Below, piece after piece: positions 20,764 through 29,359 of a stretch of 35,919 nt of DNA. Within the stretch, counting starts at the first letter, position 1; each line of letters opens with the position of its first letter. This DNA comes from Rubrivivax sp. (GTDB lineage: Bacteria; Pseudomonadota; Gammaproteobacteria; Burkholderiales; Burkholderiaceae_C): the NCBI GenBank assembly GCA_016790425.1, contig JAEUPF010000074.1, positions 1 to 35,919 on the forward strand, written 5' to 3'. The notes beneath the pieces are model-generated. The model did no database searches. It worked only from the letters and a program-made list of their open reading frames with translations, and was not told where the DNA came from. Both the position numbers and the translations under genes were made by a program.

Positions 20764-21042
20764 ATGGACGCCACGGTGGCCGAACGCGGCCAGATCACGC
20801 TGCCCAAGGCGGTGCGCGACGCCCTCGGCCTGACCAAGGGCACCAAGCTCAAGGTCGAGATCGACGGCGGCCGCATCATCCTGCGCAAGGACGTGGGCGA
20901 CGCGATCTCGCGCGTGCGCGGGCGGCTGAAGCTGCCGCCGGGCGTGCGCACCGACGACATCATGCGCGAGCTGCGCGGCCGCGCCCCCGGCGACCCGACC
21001 CCCGAGTGGGACCAGCCCCTGCCGCCGGCCAAGCGCCGTTGA
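20764..21042 (+). CDS. vapB: AbrB/MazE-type antitoxin (VapB)
   Basis: This 92-residue protein begins with a SpoVT/AbrB DNA-binding domain (residues about 4-45: VAERGQITLPKAVRDALGL, then KLKVEIDGGRIILRKD). The C-terminal half is basic and Pro-rich and would wrap the toxin. It should neutralise the adjacent PIN-domain toxin and repress its own promoter. The ATG at 20764 is the only start that fits, since the frame upstream crosses the promoter. It lies 50 bp before vapC, a longer spacing than the usual overlap of such pairs. Confidence 0.92.
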   Translation: MDATVAERGQITLPKAVRDALGLTKGTKLKVEIDGGRIILRKDVGDAISRVRGRLKLPPGVRTDDIMRELRGRAPGDPTPEWDQPLPPAKRR

Positions 21043-21092
21043 CGCCGCCGCCGATGCCGCTCGCGCACTGAAGCCGTGCCGACCTTCTCGCG

Positions 21093-21518
21093 ATGATCGC
21101 CGTCGACAGCAGCGTCCTCATCGACATCATCGGCGACGACGCCGTCGCCGGCGATGCCGCCGACGCCGCACTGCGCCGGGCGCTTTCCACGGGGCCCGTC
21201 GTCGCCTGCGAGGTGGTGCTGGCCGAGGTGGTGGCCGGGCTCGGCAACGGCTCGGTGGTGGTCGAGGCGCTGGAGGAAATGGGCATCGACTTCCAGCCGC
21301 TGGAGCAACGCTCGGCGGTGCGCGCCGGCGAGATGCAGCGGCGCTACAACGAACGCCGCCGTGCCGCCGGCGAGGCCGGTCCCGGCCCGCGCACCGTGCC
21401 CGACTTCCTCATCGGCGCGCACGCGCTGCTGCAGTGCCAGGGGCTCATCACGCGCGACGCCGGCTTCTACCGCGACTACTTCAAGGGCCTCAAAGTCATC
21501 GTCCCGAAAGCCCCCTAG
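21093..21518 (+). CDS. vapC: PIN-domain ribonuclease toxin (VapC)
   Basis: This 141-residue PIN domain would be a Mg-dependent ribonuclease that stops translation, typically by cutting tRNA or rRNA. Acidic residues expected at the active site are present: Asp5 (AVDSS), Glu45 (VLAEV), Asp104 (VPDFLIGAHAL) and Asp122 (ITRDAGFY). The C-terminal pattern FYRDYFKGLKVIVP is standard for the family. The start is the ATG at 21093; no good Shine-Dalgarno is visible, so translation may depend on vapB. It is followed after 87 bp by acnA. Confidence 0.93.
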   Translation: MIAVDSSVLIDIIGDDAVAGDAADAALRRALSTGPVVACEVVLAEVVAGLGNGSVVVEALEEMGIDFQPLEQRSAVRAGEMQRRYNERRRAAGEAGPGPRTVPDFLIGAHALLQCQGLITRDAGFYRDYFKGLKVIVPKAP

Positions 21519-24425: not shown

Positions 24426-26432
24426 TCAGCGCCCGCGCAGGAACAGCGCGTCCAGCTCCTGCATCGTCACCTGCCGCCACGTCGGGCGGCCGTGGTTGCA
24501 GGTGTCGGCGCGATCGGTGGCTTCCATGTCGCGCAGGAGCGCGTTCATCTCCTCCAGCGTCAGCCGCCGGTTGGCGCGCACGGCACCGTGGCAGGCCATC
24601 GTGGCGAGGATGTCGTCGCGCGAGCGCTGCACGATGCGGCTGGCGCCGCCGCTGTCGGCCGCGGCGAGTTCGGCCAGCACCGAGCGCGTCAGTTCGGCCA
24701 CGTCGGCGTCGGGCAAGGCCGCGGGGCGGCTGCGCACGGCCAGCGTCGTGGCGTTGAGGCGCCCGACATCGAGGCCGAGTTGCGCGAGCGTGGCCTGCTC
24801 GCTCTCGGCCGCCGCGAGCTCGGCCGCGGTGGCCTGGAAGGTCACGGGGATGAGCAGCGGCTGTGCCGGCAGCGGCCTGCCGGCTTCGCTGCCGTCTTCG
24901 CTGCCGGCTCCGCCGTCGGCATGCGCAGCGGCGGCCGCACGCTTGAGTCGTTCGTAGACGATGCGCTCGTGCGCGGCATGCATGTCGACGACGACGAGGC
25001 CGTGGCGGTTCTCGGCGAGGATGTAGACGCCGCCGACCTGCGCCAACGCCCGGCCCAGCGGCCAGGCCGGCTGTTCACCGCTGCCCGCCGACCCATCGCC
25101 GCGCAGGCTTGCGCCGGGTGTCACGGGTGTCAGCGGTGTCAGCGGTGTCAGGGGCGAGCGCAGCGCGGCCCATGCGGCCAGGCCCGCTCCGCTCGAAACC
25201 GCGGCAGTGCCAGCCGGGCGCTGCGGTGCTTGCGCCCAGGGCGGGGCAGGCTCCTCGGCGCGCCAGCGCGCGACCGATGCAGCGGCTGCCGCCTCGTTCA
25301 TCGCGCCCGCTTCGGCCAGCGCCAGCGCAGGCTGCCACGAGGTCACCGCGGCCGCCTCGTTGCCGCGCGCCGCCGGGGCGGCCTCGCCGGCTGGCGCCGC
25401 CTGCATCGCCCGCGTCGGCGCCAGTGCCCGTTCCACCGCCTGCCGCACCGCCTGGTGCACGGCGCGGCTGTCGCGGAAGCGCACCTCGATCTTCGTCGGG
25501 TGCACGTTCACGTCGACGAGTTCGGGCGCGATCGAGAGGAACAGCGCATACGCCGGCTGCCGGCTGCCGTGCAACTGGTCCTCGTAGGCCGAACGCACCG
25601 CGTGCGCCAGCAGCCGGTCGCGCACGAAGCGGCAGTTGACGAAGAGGTACTGGTGGTCGGCGCGCGCCCGCGCCGCCTCGGGGCGACCGATGCGGCCTTC
25701 GAGCGCGAGCGGCCCCGCTGCCGCATCGAGCGCCACGCTGGCGGCGATGAACGCCGCCCCCAGCACTTCGGCGCGCCGCGCCGCCGCCGCGCTGGCCCGC
25801 CATTGCGCGACCAGCCGCCCCTCGTGCCACACGGCGAAGCCCACGTCCGGCCGCGCCAGCGCGTGCCGGCGCACGGCCTCGATGCAGTGCGCCAGTTCGG
25901 TGGCGTCGCTCTTCAGGAACTTGCGCCGCGCCGGCGTGGCGAAGAAGAGTTCCTGCATTTCCACCGTGGTGCCGCGCCCGCGCGCTGCCGCGGCGATGTG
26001 GCCGTCGCGCGCATCGAGCCGCCAGGCGTGCTCGGCAGCAGCGGTGCGGCTGGTGATCGCCAGTTCCGCCACCGAGCCGATGGCCGCCAGCGCCTCGCCG
26101 CGAAAGCCCATCGTCGCCACCGATTCGAGGTCGGCGAGGTCGGCGATCTTGCTCGTCGCGTGCCGCTGCACCGCGAGCACGAGGTCCTCGCGCGCGATGC
26201 CCAGGCCGTCGTCCTCGACGAGGATCGAACGCACGCCGCCGCCGGCCAGGCGCAGCGTCACCTGCGTGGCACCGGCGTCGAGCGCGTTGTCCACGAGCTC
26301 GCGCACCACCGAGGCGGGCCACTCGACCACTTCGCCGGCGGCGATCTGGCTCACCAGGTCGTCGGGCAGGGCACGGATGCGGCGCACGGCGGCGCCGCCG
26401 CCTTGGCGCAGGTCAATGCGCTCGCCGTTCAT
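24426..26432 (-). CDS. mutL: DNA mismatch repair protein MutL
   Basis: MutL links mismatch recognition by MutS to strand incision and excision. The GHKL ATPase motifs are present in order: ELVDNALDAGA with Glu45 and Asn49, DDGLGI, ATSKI and GFRGEAL. After a long Ala-rich linker (about 320-460) with a 9-bp repeat, the C-terminal domain has DMHAAHERIVYE (483-494), fitting the DQHA(X)2E(X)4E endonuclease motif with Gln replaced by Met, then ACHGAVR, CNHGRPT and the final FLRGR. These features are absent from E. coli MutL and suggest a MutH-independent, nicking MutL. The ATG at 26432 is preceded by a -10-like TAGAAT only 7 nt upstream. Confidence 0.96.
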   Translation of the reverse strand: MNGERIDLRQGGGAAVRRIRALPDDLVSQIAAGEVVEWPASVVRELVDNALDAGATQVTLRLAGGGVRSILVEDDGLGIAREDLVLAVQRHATSKIADLADLESVATMGFRGEALAAIGSVAELAITSRTAAAEHAWRLDARDGHIAAAARGRGTTVEMQELFFATPARRKFLKSDATELAHCIEAVRRHALARPDVGFAVWHEGRLVAQWRASAAAARRAEVLGAAFIAASVALDAAAGPLALEGRIGRPEAARARADHQYLFVNCRFVRDRLLAHAVRSAYEDQLHGSRQPAYALFLSIAPELVDVNVHPTKIEVRFRDSRAVHQAVRQAVERALAPTRAMQAAPAGEAAPAARGNEAAAVTSWQPALALAEAGAMNEAAAAASVARWRAEEPAPPWAQAPQRPAGTAAVSSGAGLAAWAALRSPLTPLTPLTPVTPGASLRGDGSAGSGEQPAWPLGRALAQVGGVYILAENRHGLVVVDMHAAHERIVYERLKRAAAAAHADGGAGSEDGSEAGRPLPAQPLLIPVTFQATAAELAAAESEQATLAQLGLDVGRLNATTLAVRSRPAALPDADVAELTRSVLAELAAADSGGASRIVQRSRDDILATMACHGAVRANRRLTLEEMNALLRDMEATDRADTCNHGRPTWRQVTMQELDALFLRGR
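25116..25151. repeat. 9-bp tandem repeat in the MutL linker
   Basis: Four units of GGTGTCAGC-type sequence encode LTPLTPLTPVTP on the minus strand, between the ATPase and dimerisation domains. The unit length keeps the frame when copy number changes. Confidence 0.85.
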
Positions 26433-26439
26433 CGCGAAG

Positions 26440-26445
26440 ATTCTA
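26440..26445 (-). promoter_or_regulatory. Candidate -10 element of mutL (leaderless)
   Basis: TAGAAT on the minus strand lies 7 nt before the mutL ATG, so the transcript would start at or near the start codon. No clear -35 is visible 17 bp further up. Confidence 0.5.
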
Positions 26446-26494
26446 GGGGTGGCTCACCTGGGAAGCCGCCGGGTTCCCGCTCGGCGAGTGCGCC

Positions 26495-26500
26495 TAGACT
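26495..26500 (+). promoter_or_regulatory. Candidate -10 element of the diiron oxidase/DSF synthase unit
   Basis: TAGACT lies 88 bp before the ATG at 26589, in the 156-bp gap between divergent mutL and this unit. The -35 is poor, so this is a tentative call; the leader would be about 80 nt. Confidence 0.4.
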
Positions 26501-26588
26501 CCGGTCCTGTCAATGGCCTTCCGCGCGAACACGCCGCATTCGAACGCGCGGCGCCGGGGGAGGCAGTGAATCGTTGGGGAAACGACAG

Positions 26589-27248
26589 ATGTCGACGTTC
26601 TTTGCCGACCTGGTCGGCCGCACGGACGAAGATCGCCGCGCGTTCGAAACGCATCCGGCGGTCCTCGATGCCGTTGCCCAGGGCATGCCGCTGGAGCGGT
26701 ATCGCAGGCTGCTGCTCGAGCTGTACCACGTCGTGTGGCACTTCAACCCGGCCAGCGCCGCGGCGGCCAGCCGCATGGGGCACCCGGGGCACGACGCGCT
26801 GCAGCCGATCCGCCACTTCCTCTACCAGCACATGCAGGAGGAAAGCGGGCACGAGACCTGGGTGCTCAACGACCTGGAAGCCATCGGCGTGCCCGGCAGC
26901 GACGCACGCGCCTACTCGCCTTCGGTCAACACGTTGAGCTTGGTGGGCTACAACTACTGGGCCGCCGACCGCGGCCATCCGTGTTCGGTGCTGGGCATGC
27001 TGTACGCGCTGGAAGTGGTGGCCAGCGTCTACGGCGGGCCGTTCGCCGCAGCGATCCGCGAATCGCTGCTGCTCGAAGGCGAGCGCGGGGTTTCGTTCAT
27101 CGCCTCGCACGCCACGCTGGACGCGCAGCACATGGCCGACCTCCGGCAGGTGCTGAACCAGGTGCGCGACGAGGCCGGGCAAGCGGCGATCGTGCAGTCG
27201 GTGCGCGTCAACTTCCATCACTTCACGCGCATCGTCGAAGGTGTCTGA
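26589..27248 (+). CDS. Heme-oxygenase-like diiron oxidase (iron-containing redox enzyme family)
   Basis: This 219-residue all-helical protein belongs to the TenA/heme-oxygenase-like superfamily. It carries the metal-ligand pattern of the diiron oxidase branch (UndA, CADD, SznF): Glu85 and His88 in EESGHETW, Glu142 in YALEVVASVYGG, and His174, Asp178 and His181 in SHATLDAQH. The H-x3-D-x2-H spacing and most positions match CADD; residue 81, a Glu ligand in CADD, is His here, and ExxH follows UndA instead. UndA acts on fatty acids, CADD makes p-aminobenzoate; the substrate here is unknown. The ATG at 26589 follows GGGGAAA 6 nt upstream. The 3' end overlaps the DSF-synthase-like gene by 8 bp. 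Confidence 0.88.
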   Translation: MSTFFADLVGRTDEDRRAFETHPAVLDAVAQGMPLERYRRLLLELYHVVWHFNPASAAAASRMGHPGHDALQPIRHFLYQHMQEESGHETWVLNDLEAIGVPGSDARAYSPSVNTLSLVGYNYWAADRGHPCSVLGMLYALEVVASVYGGPFAAAIRESLLLEGERGVSFIASHATLDAQHMADLRQVLNQVRDEAGQAAIVQSVRVNFHHFTRIVEGV

Positions 27249-28296
27249 AAGGCTGGCCCCCGAAGTGGCCGCACCCGCTTCAGGTTCAGCGGCCGGACCC
27301 GCGGCGGGTCCGGCGCCTGCGGCCGCGCCCGCGGGGGCGCCGGGCGTCGGTGTGGCCGGGCTGCTCGGCCGGCCGTACAAGACGATCCGCCTGGAGTGGA
27401 CGAGCGACCTGCGCCTGCTGCGCGTGCGCCTTTGCGTGCGGCCGATCCAGTGCTACAGCCTCGCGGCGATGGGCGAACTGCAGCAGATGCTGGACGACAT
27501 CACCGCCAATCCCGGGCTGGTGCGGCACTTCGTGATGACCTCCGACGTGCCGCAGGTGTTCAACTTCGGCGGCGACCTGGCGCTGTTCGTGCTGCTGGTG
27601 CGCGCCGGCGACATCGAATCGCTGGAGCTGTACGGGCGCCGCTGCGTCGACCTCGTGTGGTGGATGGAGAACGCCGCCGACCTGGGCATCCACACCACCG
27701 TGCTGGCGCAAGGCGACACGCTGGGCGGCGGCCTGGAGAGCGTGCTGCCGTTCCACAAGGTCATCTTCGAGCGCGGTGCGCAGGCGGGCTTTCCCGAGGT
27801 GCTGTTCAACCTCTTCCCGGGCATGGGCGCCTGGGACTTCACCATCCGCAAGGGCGGCCTGGCGGTGGCCAACGAGATGATCCTCTCCGGGCGCCTGTAT
27901 ACCGCCGAGGAACTGCAGTTCCGACGCCTGGTGGACGTGGTGGCCGAGCCGGGCGAAGGCGAAGCGGCGCTGGAGCGCGTGGTGCGCGAGGTCGACCCGC
28001 GCCACCGCGGCACCATCGCGGCGCTGCGGGCGCAACGCATCGCGGCCCCGGTGCGGCACGAGAGCCTGCTGGCCATCGTCAAGCTGTGGGCCGAGAGCGC
28101 GATGGGCCTCACCGACCGCGACCTGCGGCTGATGGAGCGCCTGGCGCGCGCGCAGGCCCGCAAGGCCGGCGGCGCCGACGAAGGCGCCGTCGAGGAGATC
28201 AAGCGCCTGGAGCTGGAGAACGCCTGGGGCGGCGACCGCCGCAGCGGCTTCGAGCGCCGCGCCGCCAACAGCGGCGACCGGCGCACGCGCGGCTGA
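27241..28296 (+). CDS. RpfF-like DSF-family signal synthase (crotonase fold)
   Basis: This 351-residue protein of the crotonase superfamily closely resembles RpfF, which makes cis-2-unsaturated fatty acid signals from acyl-ACP by dehydration and thioester hydrolysis. Shared stretches are FNFGGDLALF, LAQGDTLGGGLES, GFPEVLFNLFPGMGAW and WAESAM...RLARAQARK. Both catalytic glutamates are present: Glu166 (GGGLES) and Glu186 (GFPEV), 20 residues apart as in Xanthomonas RpfF (141 and 161). About 40 N-terminal residues are Ala/Pro/Gly-rich and the C-terminus adds a basic tail with repeated DRR/ERR motifs; neither is in RpfF. The GTG start at 27241 overlaps the upstream gene. No RpfC, RpfG or RpfR gene lies in the window. 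Confidence 0.88.
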   Translation: MSERLAPEVAAPASGSAAGPAAGPAPAAAPAGAPGVGVAGLLGRPYKTIRLEWTSDLRLLRVRLCVRPIQCYSLAAMGELQQMLDDITANPGLVRHFVMTSDVPQVFNFGGDLALFVLLVRAGDIESLELYGRRCVDLVWWMENAADLGIHTTVLAQGDTLGGGLESVLPFHKVIFERGAQAGFPEVLFNLFPGMGAWDFTIRKGGLAVANEMILSGRLYTAEELQFRRLVDVVAEPGEGEAALERVVREVDPRHRGTIAALRAQRIAAPVRHESLLAIVKLWAESAMGLTDRDLRLMERLARAQARKAGGADEGAVEEIKRLELENAWGGDRRSGFERRAANSGDRRTRG

Positions 28297-28323
28297 AAGC
28301 ACAGGCCGGGGCCGGTGCCCTCG

Positions 28324-28340
28324 GCGCGGCAACCCCGCGC
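28324..28340. terminator. Stem-loop between convergent genes
   Basis: GCGCGG and CCGCGC pair around a 5-nt loop in the 91-bp gap between the DSF-synthase-like gene and the transporter gene. It could act on both strands. There is no T-run. Confidence 0.35.
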
Positions 28341-28387
28341 TCGATGTCGCCAGCCGGCCGGGCGCTGCACGCAGGCCTGAACCGCGC

Positions 28388-29359
28388 CTACCGCGCCGGC
28401 GCCGGCCGCGTCGCCAGCCAGATGCCCGGCAGGATGAGCGCCGCACCGACGCCGTGGTACCAGCGCGGCACTTCGCCCAGCACCCACCAGGCGCCCAGCG
28501 CGCCGTACACCGGCGCCAGGTACTGCATCAGCGCCGTGCGCGCCGCGCCCAGTTCGCGCTGCAACAGCGAATAGGCGCCGTAGCTCAGCACGCCGGGCAG
28601 CACCGCGGCGAGTGCCACCAGCCAGGCGGCGCGCGCCGTGAAGGGCAGTGGCGGCGCCGTCATCGCTTCCCACACGGTGGCCGGCAGCAGCGCGAGCAGG
28701 CCGCCGGCGATGATCGCGGCCAGCCGCTCGCCCGGGCCGAGCGCCGAGGGCCAGTGCTTGAGCAGCAGCGAATACGCCGTCCACGCCACCACGGCGGCGA
28801 CGATCCACGCGTCCCCGGGCGCGAGCTGCAAGGCCAGCAGTGTCGCGAGTTCGCCGCGCGCGATGACGAACAGCACGCCGGCCAGCGCCGCGGCAACGGC
28901 CGCCCATTGCAGCGACGACATGCGCTCGTGCAACAGCTTCACGCCGATGATGGCAATGGCCACCGGCGCCGCGGCGTAGATGAGCGCGATGTTGGCCGCG
29001 CTCGTGCTCTGCCCGCCCAGGTACACCCAGGCGCCGCAGATCCACATGCCGAGCGAGCCCAGCACGAGCAGATGCTGCCACTCGCGCCGCACCGCCTGCC
29101 GCCGCTCGAGAAGGCCGCGGCCGACGAAAGGCAGCAGCAGCACCAGCGCCACCGCCCAGCGCCCGAAGGCGAGCGCATGCGGATGCACCACGCCGCTGGC
29201 CAGCCGCGCGATGAGGTAGTTGGACGACCACAGCGCCGGCACCGCGAAGAGCAGCATCGGCGCCCACCAGCGGGCGGCCCTGCTCGTCGTTGCCTGCGCC
29301 GCCATCGTCGGCGTCGGCGCCATCGTCGGCGCCATCGTCGGCGCCGTCGTCGGCGCCAT
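28388..29359 (-). CDS. EamA/DMT family transporter
   Basis: This inner-membrane protein of about 300 residues has ten predicted membrane helices in two EamA repeats (LLFAVPALWSSNYLIARL at the start; AWIVAAVVAWTAYSLLLKHW opens the second). The family exports metabolites or drugs; the substrate cannot be told. The start is uncertain. In-frame ATGs occur at 29359, 29335, 29323 and 29305 within a repeated MAPT-coding stretch, none with a good Shine-Dalgarno; 29359 gives 323 residues, 29305 gives 305. The gene follows psd by 59 bp or more and is the last in a long leftward cluster. Confidence 0.85.
   Translation of the reverse strand: MAPTTAPTMAPTMAPTPTMAAQATTSRAARWWAPMLLFAVPALWSSNYLIARLASGVVHPHALAFGRWAVALVLLLPFVGRGLLERRQAVRREWQHLLVLGSLGMWICGAWVYLGGQSTSAANIALIYAAAPVAIAIIGVKLLHERMSSLQWAAVAAALAGVLFVIARGELATLLALQLAPGDAWIVAAVVAWTAYSLLLKHWPSALGPGERLAAIIAGGLLALLPATVWEAMTAPPLPFTARAAWLVALAAVLPGVLSYGAYSLLQRELGAARTALMQYLAPVYGALGAWWVLGEVPRWYHGVGAALILPGIWLATRPAPAR

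Follow-up and report, generated by a model that had tools for sequence, protein, structure and literature searches.

What is a gene for a heme-oxygenase-like diiron oxidase (HDO) doing directly in front of a gene for an RpfF-like synthase, the arrangement seen in the window, i.e. the whole 35,919-nt stretch of Rubrivivax sp. DNA analysed here (contig JAEUPF010000074.1)? The sequence-only reading of this DNA had taken the two genes (Table 1) for a translationally coupled pair that may produce an oxidised or decarboxylated DSF-family signal, had contrasted it with the classical rpfC/rpfG loci, and had kept a p-aminobenzoate-forming oxidase as the alternative. We followed the two proteins, their neighbours and their relatives through families, structures, genomes and literature.

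Table 1. Positions of the paired genes and of the elements adjoining them in the window
Feature	Positions	Strand	Details
HDO (heme-oxygenase-like diiron oxidase)	26589..27248	+	219 aa, ATG to TGA; PF14518
RpfF-like crotonase	27241..28296	+	351 aa from GTG; glutamates E166 and E186
HDO stop / rpfF start overlap	27241..27248	+	8 bp, GTGTCTGA; likely
mutL-HDO intergenic region	26433..26588	+	presumed promoter of the pair, by position only

The upstream protein belongs to the HDO superfamily. In a profile search it matched PF14518 with 72 bits (E 5.6e-20; cut-off 28.9), and an AlphaFold2 model from a 16-row alignment (pLDDT 91.6, pTM 0.89) displayed the heme-oxygenase-like helical fold of the superfamily, for which Foldseek returned the uncharacterised Shewanella HDO 3dde (TMq 0.80-0.83), UndA (0.79-0.84), CADD (0.83-0.84) and BesC (0.73-0.74). 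E85, H88, E142, H174, D178 and H181 are the predicted diiron ligands and would make up the 3-His/3-carboxylate (3H/3C) set of the superfamily; they are invariant in the alignment of the window with 30 of the 31 close-relative loci (31/31 sequences, the truncated L039 being left out) and in a wider set (39/39), so that family model, structure and alignments all uphold the fold and the six ligands read from the letters. By profile, 3dde is the nearest solved structure (E 1.1e-17) and MboA, the mangotoxin acetylenase, the nearest characterised sequence relative (1.2e-5), followed by CADD (1.9e-4) and UndA (7.5e-4). All characterised HDOs are remote: UndA has the same fold and 3H/3C set (PMC13108848) but only 15-17% identity in the structure alignment, while MboA acts on a peptide substrate and binds its metals through E86, H89, E143, H172, D176 and H181 (PMC13185094), with the last two ligands spaced differently from those of the window protein. 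The window's genome also encodes another, very distant PF14518 protein, in which all six ligands align (G000:C155:14396-14917, L001).

The downstream protein is an RpfF-like crotonase. It scored 298 bits on NF006452 (PRK08788; cut-off 177) and matched the solved RpfF-type chains 7zq7, 3m6m, 6dgn and 5fus (E 1e-47 to 3e-38), and on the RpfF equivalog model NF053515 it stayed below the cut-off (186 versus 550 bits); this model looks narrow, because the rpfF product of L130, whose gene faces rpfG-rpfC, also reaches only 222 bits. Its two glutamates, presumably the catalytic pair, lie 20 residues apart, align with glutamates of 3m6m, and are present in all 55 tree rows and in all 43 RpfF rows, the profile behind the latter taking in 42 of 61 candidate loci (L042-L071 in forward frames alone; L011-L041 with more than 270 aligned residues); the glutamate pair had thus been read correctly from the DNA. 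The 8-bp overlap proposed in the same reading stands as likely but not proven. The six nearest loci (L011-L016) also have the GTG at -8, together with more in-frame starts upstream, and the start in the window stays short of proof because a second in-frame GTG sits 16 bp past the HDO stop. Among the 31 close-relative loci ten have an ATG at -4, and in most of the remaining tandem loci the first rpfF start lies 2-39 bp past the HDO stop. The pair is flanked by a divergent mutL upstream and by opposite-strand EamA transporter and phosphatidylserine decarboxylase genes downstream, and a promoter and terminator scan of positions 26400-28450 returned nothing, with no sigma-70-like match. Further upstream in the window (20764-21518, +), two small ORFs resemble by eye a VapBC-like pair of AbrB-type antitoxin and PIN-domain toxin.

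The pairing of HDO with rpfF is not incidental. Public genomes were scanned with the window peptides as queries, which reaches close kin only, and the window RpfF yielded 31 loci with the HDO gene directly upstream in every one (L039 has the HDO end only). In the family sample (200 genomes, some possibly of the same species as loci of that scan), 13 HDOs of 341-404 bits were found and all 13 directly precede a same-strand rpfF; rpfF itself occurs in 16 of these genomes (17 places), a close HDO being absent from three of them (G612, G719 and G727). The order sample (200 genomes) contains HDOs of at least 225 bits in G000, G065, G103 and G141, all four adjoining rpfF, while 41 of its 45 rpfF places (43 genomes) have no close HDO neighbour. 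One further close HDO came from the class sample (369 genomes), in G319 (235 bits), where the neighbours are BCCT transporter and globin genes and rpfF lies on another contig, and in the phylum sample (398 genomes) the close type was confined to G000 and G654. Pooled over all samples, a close HDO occurs in 17 distinct genomes, in 16 of which it adjoins rpfF, and rpfF is present in all 17. The genome comparison therefore bears out a conserved adjacency, tandem in one family and convergent in three genomes of three other families, that reaches beyond a few close relatives and in which the adjacent homologues keep the ligands invariant.

That the pairing is an accident of close kinship was rejected, because the convergent loci of three other families carry the same HDO clade; a by-product of mutL synteny was rejected as well, because the pair stays intact in loci lacking mutL (a mutL-cluster gene is in the fetched flank of 23 of 32 loci and absent in nine, of which L039 starts inside the HDO gene). 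Gene orders of fetched loci come from a simple gene caller, except in the annotated records L195 and L196, and genes without a Pfam assignment are grouped by BLAST cluster only. rpfF is in two pieces in L036 and L039, which may reflect frame breaks or sequence errors. The RpfF-like proteins of L134-L136 (G612 and G719) belong to a divergent lineage that has no close HDO; their genes lie beside ketoacyl-synthase-cluster and kinase-cluster genes, with a Pfam assignment for the L134 kinase only, and one internal stop was flagged in each of two of the three matches. L023, filed as a Silanimonas MAG, has the pair beside a mutL-cluster gene as in betaproteobacterial loci, and its contig is possibly mis-binned.

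Two arrangements were distinguished. In the tandem type the HDO gene precedes rpfF on the same strand, and in the convergent type, found in G065, G103 and G141 (families f19, f11 and f8), it lies tail-to-tail with rpfF on the strand of rpfC, with a 4-bp overlap in L129 (G065) and spacings of 11 bp in L130 (G103) and 120 bp in L131 (G141). L130 has rpfG (REC-HD type), rpfC (HisKA-HATPase-REC-Hpt) and then HDO on one strand facing rpfF; L131 has rpfC and then HDO facing rpfF, with dnaJ instead of rpfG before rpfC; and in L129 rpfF is faced by HDO, rpfC and rpfG on a common strand, while between HDO and rpfC a gene for a fatty acid hydroxylase runs the other way (L129:1902-2852, +; PF04116, 107.6 bits). 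The rpfG, rpfC and HDO genes of a convergent locus would form one transcript. Thus the HDO also enters classical Rpf loci, and the earlier contrast with rpfC/rpfG loci was mistaken, because the same oxidase clade sits within such loci in G103 and G065 and beside rpfC in G141.

Around the window pair itself, none of the neighbours is rpfC, rpfG or rpfR, and no kinase-cluster gene lies beside rpfF in the window or its nearest loci. In other tandem loci rpfF faces a convergent kinase-cluster gene, either directly (L030, L035 and L037-L039) or one gene further (L033, L034 and L041), and the HisKA-HATPase-REC architecture was confirmed for the kinases of L033, L035 and L039. In the window's genome no match to the L130 RpfC starts before residue 146 of 848, i.e. 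its N-terminal sensor was not found, which weighs little because the assembly is only 82% complete. On plasmid RPME01 of Methylibium petroleiphilum PM1 (L195), the HDO gene (WP_011831608) overlaps the crotonase gene (WP_011831609) by 4 bp, and 34 bp after the latter follows a gene annotated as ferritin (WP_041930496; L195:9702-10544, +), whose product matches FA_desaturase_2 with 32 bits (cut-off 22.7) over only 51 of 325 profile positions; by tblastn of the fetched loci this gene was found only in L195 and L103 (100% identical).

Trees separated the HDOs by context. A quick tree of 39 rows (12 tandem loci and the window, three convergent loci, G319, 21 operon HDOs and L001, with a long-branch warning for L001 and L120) placed the rpfF-linked HDOs, tandem and convergent alike, in one clade (SH-aLRT 99) and the 21 operon HDOs, which represent a larger clade, in a separate group (support 88). 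The rpfF-linked HDOs, with G319 counted among the 17, have L45 (17/17), W50 (16/17) and F52 (17/17), and the operon HDOs A45 (21/21), K50 (18/21) and T52 (21/21); on these residues, the rpfF-linked HDOs would have the more hydrophobic pocket. In a quick RpfF tree of 55 rows (tandem rows being 16 of the 31 loci L011-L041, L103 and the window; long-branch warnings for L055, L061, L131 and L175, and, against the tandem clade, for L115-L117), the RpfFs whose HDO is in tandem grouped as a single clade (SH-aLRT 100), its stem measuring 1.47 changes per column. Ten residue changes are specific to this clade when the three divergent rows L115-L117 are set aside. The convergent-type RpfFs fell into another group, among those without an HDO.

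The operon-type HDOs, whose loci come from the class, order and family samples, have neighbours of their own. All 20 fetched loci (L149-L168) contain an AMP-ligase-cluster gene and an SDR-cluster gene, 19 a thermostable-hemolysin-cluster gene (L158 ends early) and 18 a TPR-cluster gene, the families being named from L149 and the annotated Salinivibrio record. This hemolysin-family / AMP-binding ligase / HDO / SDR / TPR cluster, present in L149-L168 and L196 (Salinivibrio kushneri), is often followed by response-regulator and kinase-cluster genes, and no product of it was found among the literature matches listed. An operon-type HDO adjoined rpfF in none of 28 class loci (flanks of at most 1.5 kb) and, by coordinates, in none of 27 from the order sample.

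A gene for an HDO, kept beside one whose product probably synthesises a fatty-acid signal, suggests an oxidative modification of the signal, and most likely the HDO extends a DSF (cis-2-unsaturated fatty acid) synthase by an oxidative tailoring step. We infer that the window RpfF makes DSF and that its product is the HDO substrate. By analogy with an RpfF homologue, for which dehydration of 3-hydroxyacyl-ACP and release of the free cis-2 acid have been described (PMC4504480), the window RpfF would dehydrate 3-hydroxyacyl-ACP and hydrolyse the thioester to give a free fatty acid. The HDO would then bind the free carboxylate at one iron, as in the five substrate-bound 3H/3C HDO structures, UndA included, in which the substrate ligates Fe1 (PMC13108848); a free fatty acid supplied by the neighbouring gene fits this mode, and characterised HDO substrates are predominantly fatty or amino acids (PMC13108848). 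With O2, the enzyme would oxidise the acyl chain near its carboxyl end. For a cis-2-enoic acid, the most plausible reactions would be allylic oxidation at C4 (hydroxylation or formation of a 2,4-diene) and desaturation of the C2 alkene to an alkyne in the manner of MboA, the end product being a modified DSF-family molecule; MboA itself makes an alkyne from an alkene, together with a redox partner (PMC13108848). A second double bond alone needs no HDO, because Xanthomonas oryzae makes CDSF, a known DSF with two, via RpfF, and the excerpted text of the source (PMC2909994) does not mention an HDO. That the HDO oxidises the free fatty acid released by RpfF to a tailored DSF-family molecule is, in our judgement, an evenly balanced proposition.

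Several other roles can be read from the same evidence. The HDO might instead remove the signal, oxidising DSF to an inactive product and so resetting signalling; the position of its gene, which shares the strand of rpfC in G065, G103 and G141, would be sensible for a feedback enzyme, but its overlap with rpfF in many tandem loci would co-produce maker and destroyer at a fixed ratio, and we think this role unlikely. Hardly different in probability is a departure of the tandem RpfF clade from DSF synthesis, the pair making a non-signal fatty acid or lipid (for membrane, volatile or antibiotic): the product of the tandem RpfFs may not be DSF, because the clade has a long stem and its window member lies under the NF053515 cut-off, and the ten clade-specific changes and the lack of rpfC, rpfG and rpfR next to the window pair point the same way, against which stand the hybrid histidine kinase gene convergent with rpfF in several tandem loci and the occurrence of the same HDO clade in rpfC loci. 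A UndA-like decarboxylation of saturated or 3-hydroxy acids released by RpfF, giving 1-alkenes as a volatile or to remove surplus acid, is unlikely too, if only a shade more so. It agrees with the fold match to UndA and with a six-ligand set like that of 3H/3C HDOs, going by what we take to be the ligand spacing of UndA, yet CADD and BesC match the fold as well and the sequence is nearer to MboA and CADD by profile. RpfF is reported to release saturated free fatty acids, an effect that RpfB counteracts (PMC4504480); in Xanthomonas surplus free acid is dealt with by RpfB re-activation. In UndA, both C3-H and the carboxylate have been considered as the site of attack (PMC13108848), and since a cis-2-enoic acid offers only a vinylic C3-H, UndA chemistry on it would be unlikely and oxidation at C4 easier; of the original pair of products, the oxidised DSF therefore stays the best reading and the decarboxylated one is chemically doubtful.

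Improbable, in our estimate, is an HDO acting before RpfF on the acyl chain or an acyl-ACP precursor: the partial FA_desaturase_2 match of the third PM1 gene and the dependence of signal patterns on substrate supply (PMC4504480) would suit it, but the five substrate-bound structures of 3H/3C HDOs in the excerpted text of PMC13108848 include no acyl-ACP complex. The p-aminobenzoate alternative, a CADD-like self-sacrificing synthase paired incidentally with rpfF, has the shared fold (TMq 0.83-0.84), the profile match (E 1.9e-4) and the 29 bits of the PM1 homologue on the CADD model in its favour. Those 29 bits, like the 14 bits of the window protein, are set against a TIGR04305 cut-off of 200. 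Phe152 of the HDO occupies the column of CADD Lys152, which we take to be the active-site lysine; the window HDO contains no lysine at all; and the adjacency to rpfF is conserved, so model scores and residues disfavour the CADD identity, which we consider very improbable.

Seen beside known systems, the locus shares with the Xanthomonas-type RpfF/RpfC/RpfG system an RpfF-like synthase with both glutamates and, in L129 and L130, an HDO of this clade inside an rpfG-rpfC / rpfF convergent locus; it differs by the added HDO gene, by the lack of rpfC and rpfG at the window locus, and by a further fatty-acid-oxidation-like gene in L129 and L195. The HDO is an addition to the Xanthomonas layout, because the published one consists of an rpfGHC operon and a convergent rpfF (PMC4504480); an HDO-free example of it, with a kinase of RpfC type, is L144. 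With the Burkholderia-type RpfF/RpfR system it shares the RpfF-like synthase; however, PAS-GGDEF-EAL genes adjoin rpfF in the HDO-free L137, L138, L140 and L142 and not at the window pair. Literature searches returned no work joining an HDO to rpfF among the 10-20 best matches each, in agreement with the sequence-only reading, which knew of no described system of this composition; an HDO in rpfC loci, or UndA paired with a DSF synthase, likewise did not appear in the matches listed or in the text excerpted. The DSF synthase and the HDO superfamily are already known, and their conserved combination is new in so far as it did not appear in the literature listed.

DSF-family signals are described as varying in chain length, in branching and in their double bonds, and it is the supply of substrates, not the specificity of RpfF, that is said to determine the pattern (PMC4504480). 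A dedicated oxidase coupled to the synthase would serve to tailor such signals, and the few HDOs characterised so far would gain a reaction on a fatty acid; M. petroleiphilum PM1, with WP_011831608 and WP_011831609, is a named strain for a product search. A wider reading, which we hold tentatively and at somewhat less than even probability, is that these loci represent a novel branch of DSF signalling: the HDO, at times accompanied by another fatty-acid oxidase, would convert the product of RpfF by oxidation into a tailored signal, for example a 2,4-dienoic, 4-hydroxy-2-enoic or 2-ynoic acid. The pairing, found in some environmental bacteria, suggests a chemical modification of a cell-to-cell fatty-acid signal that is as yet undescribed; if the new-branch reading is true, the signal would depend on O2 and iron and would be a private dialect for these bacteria.
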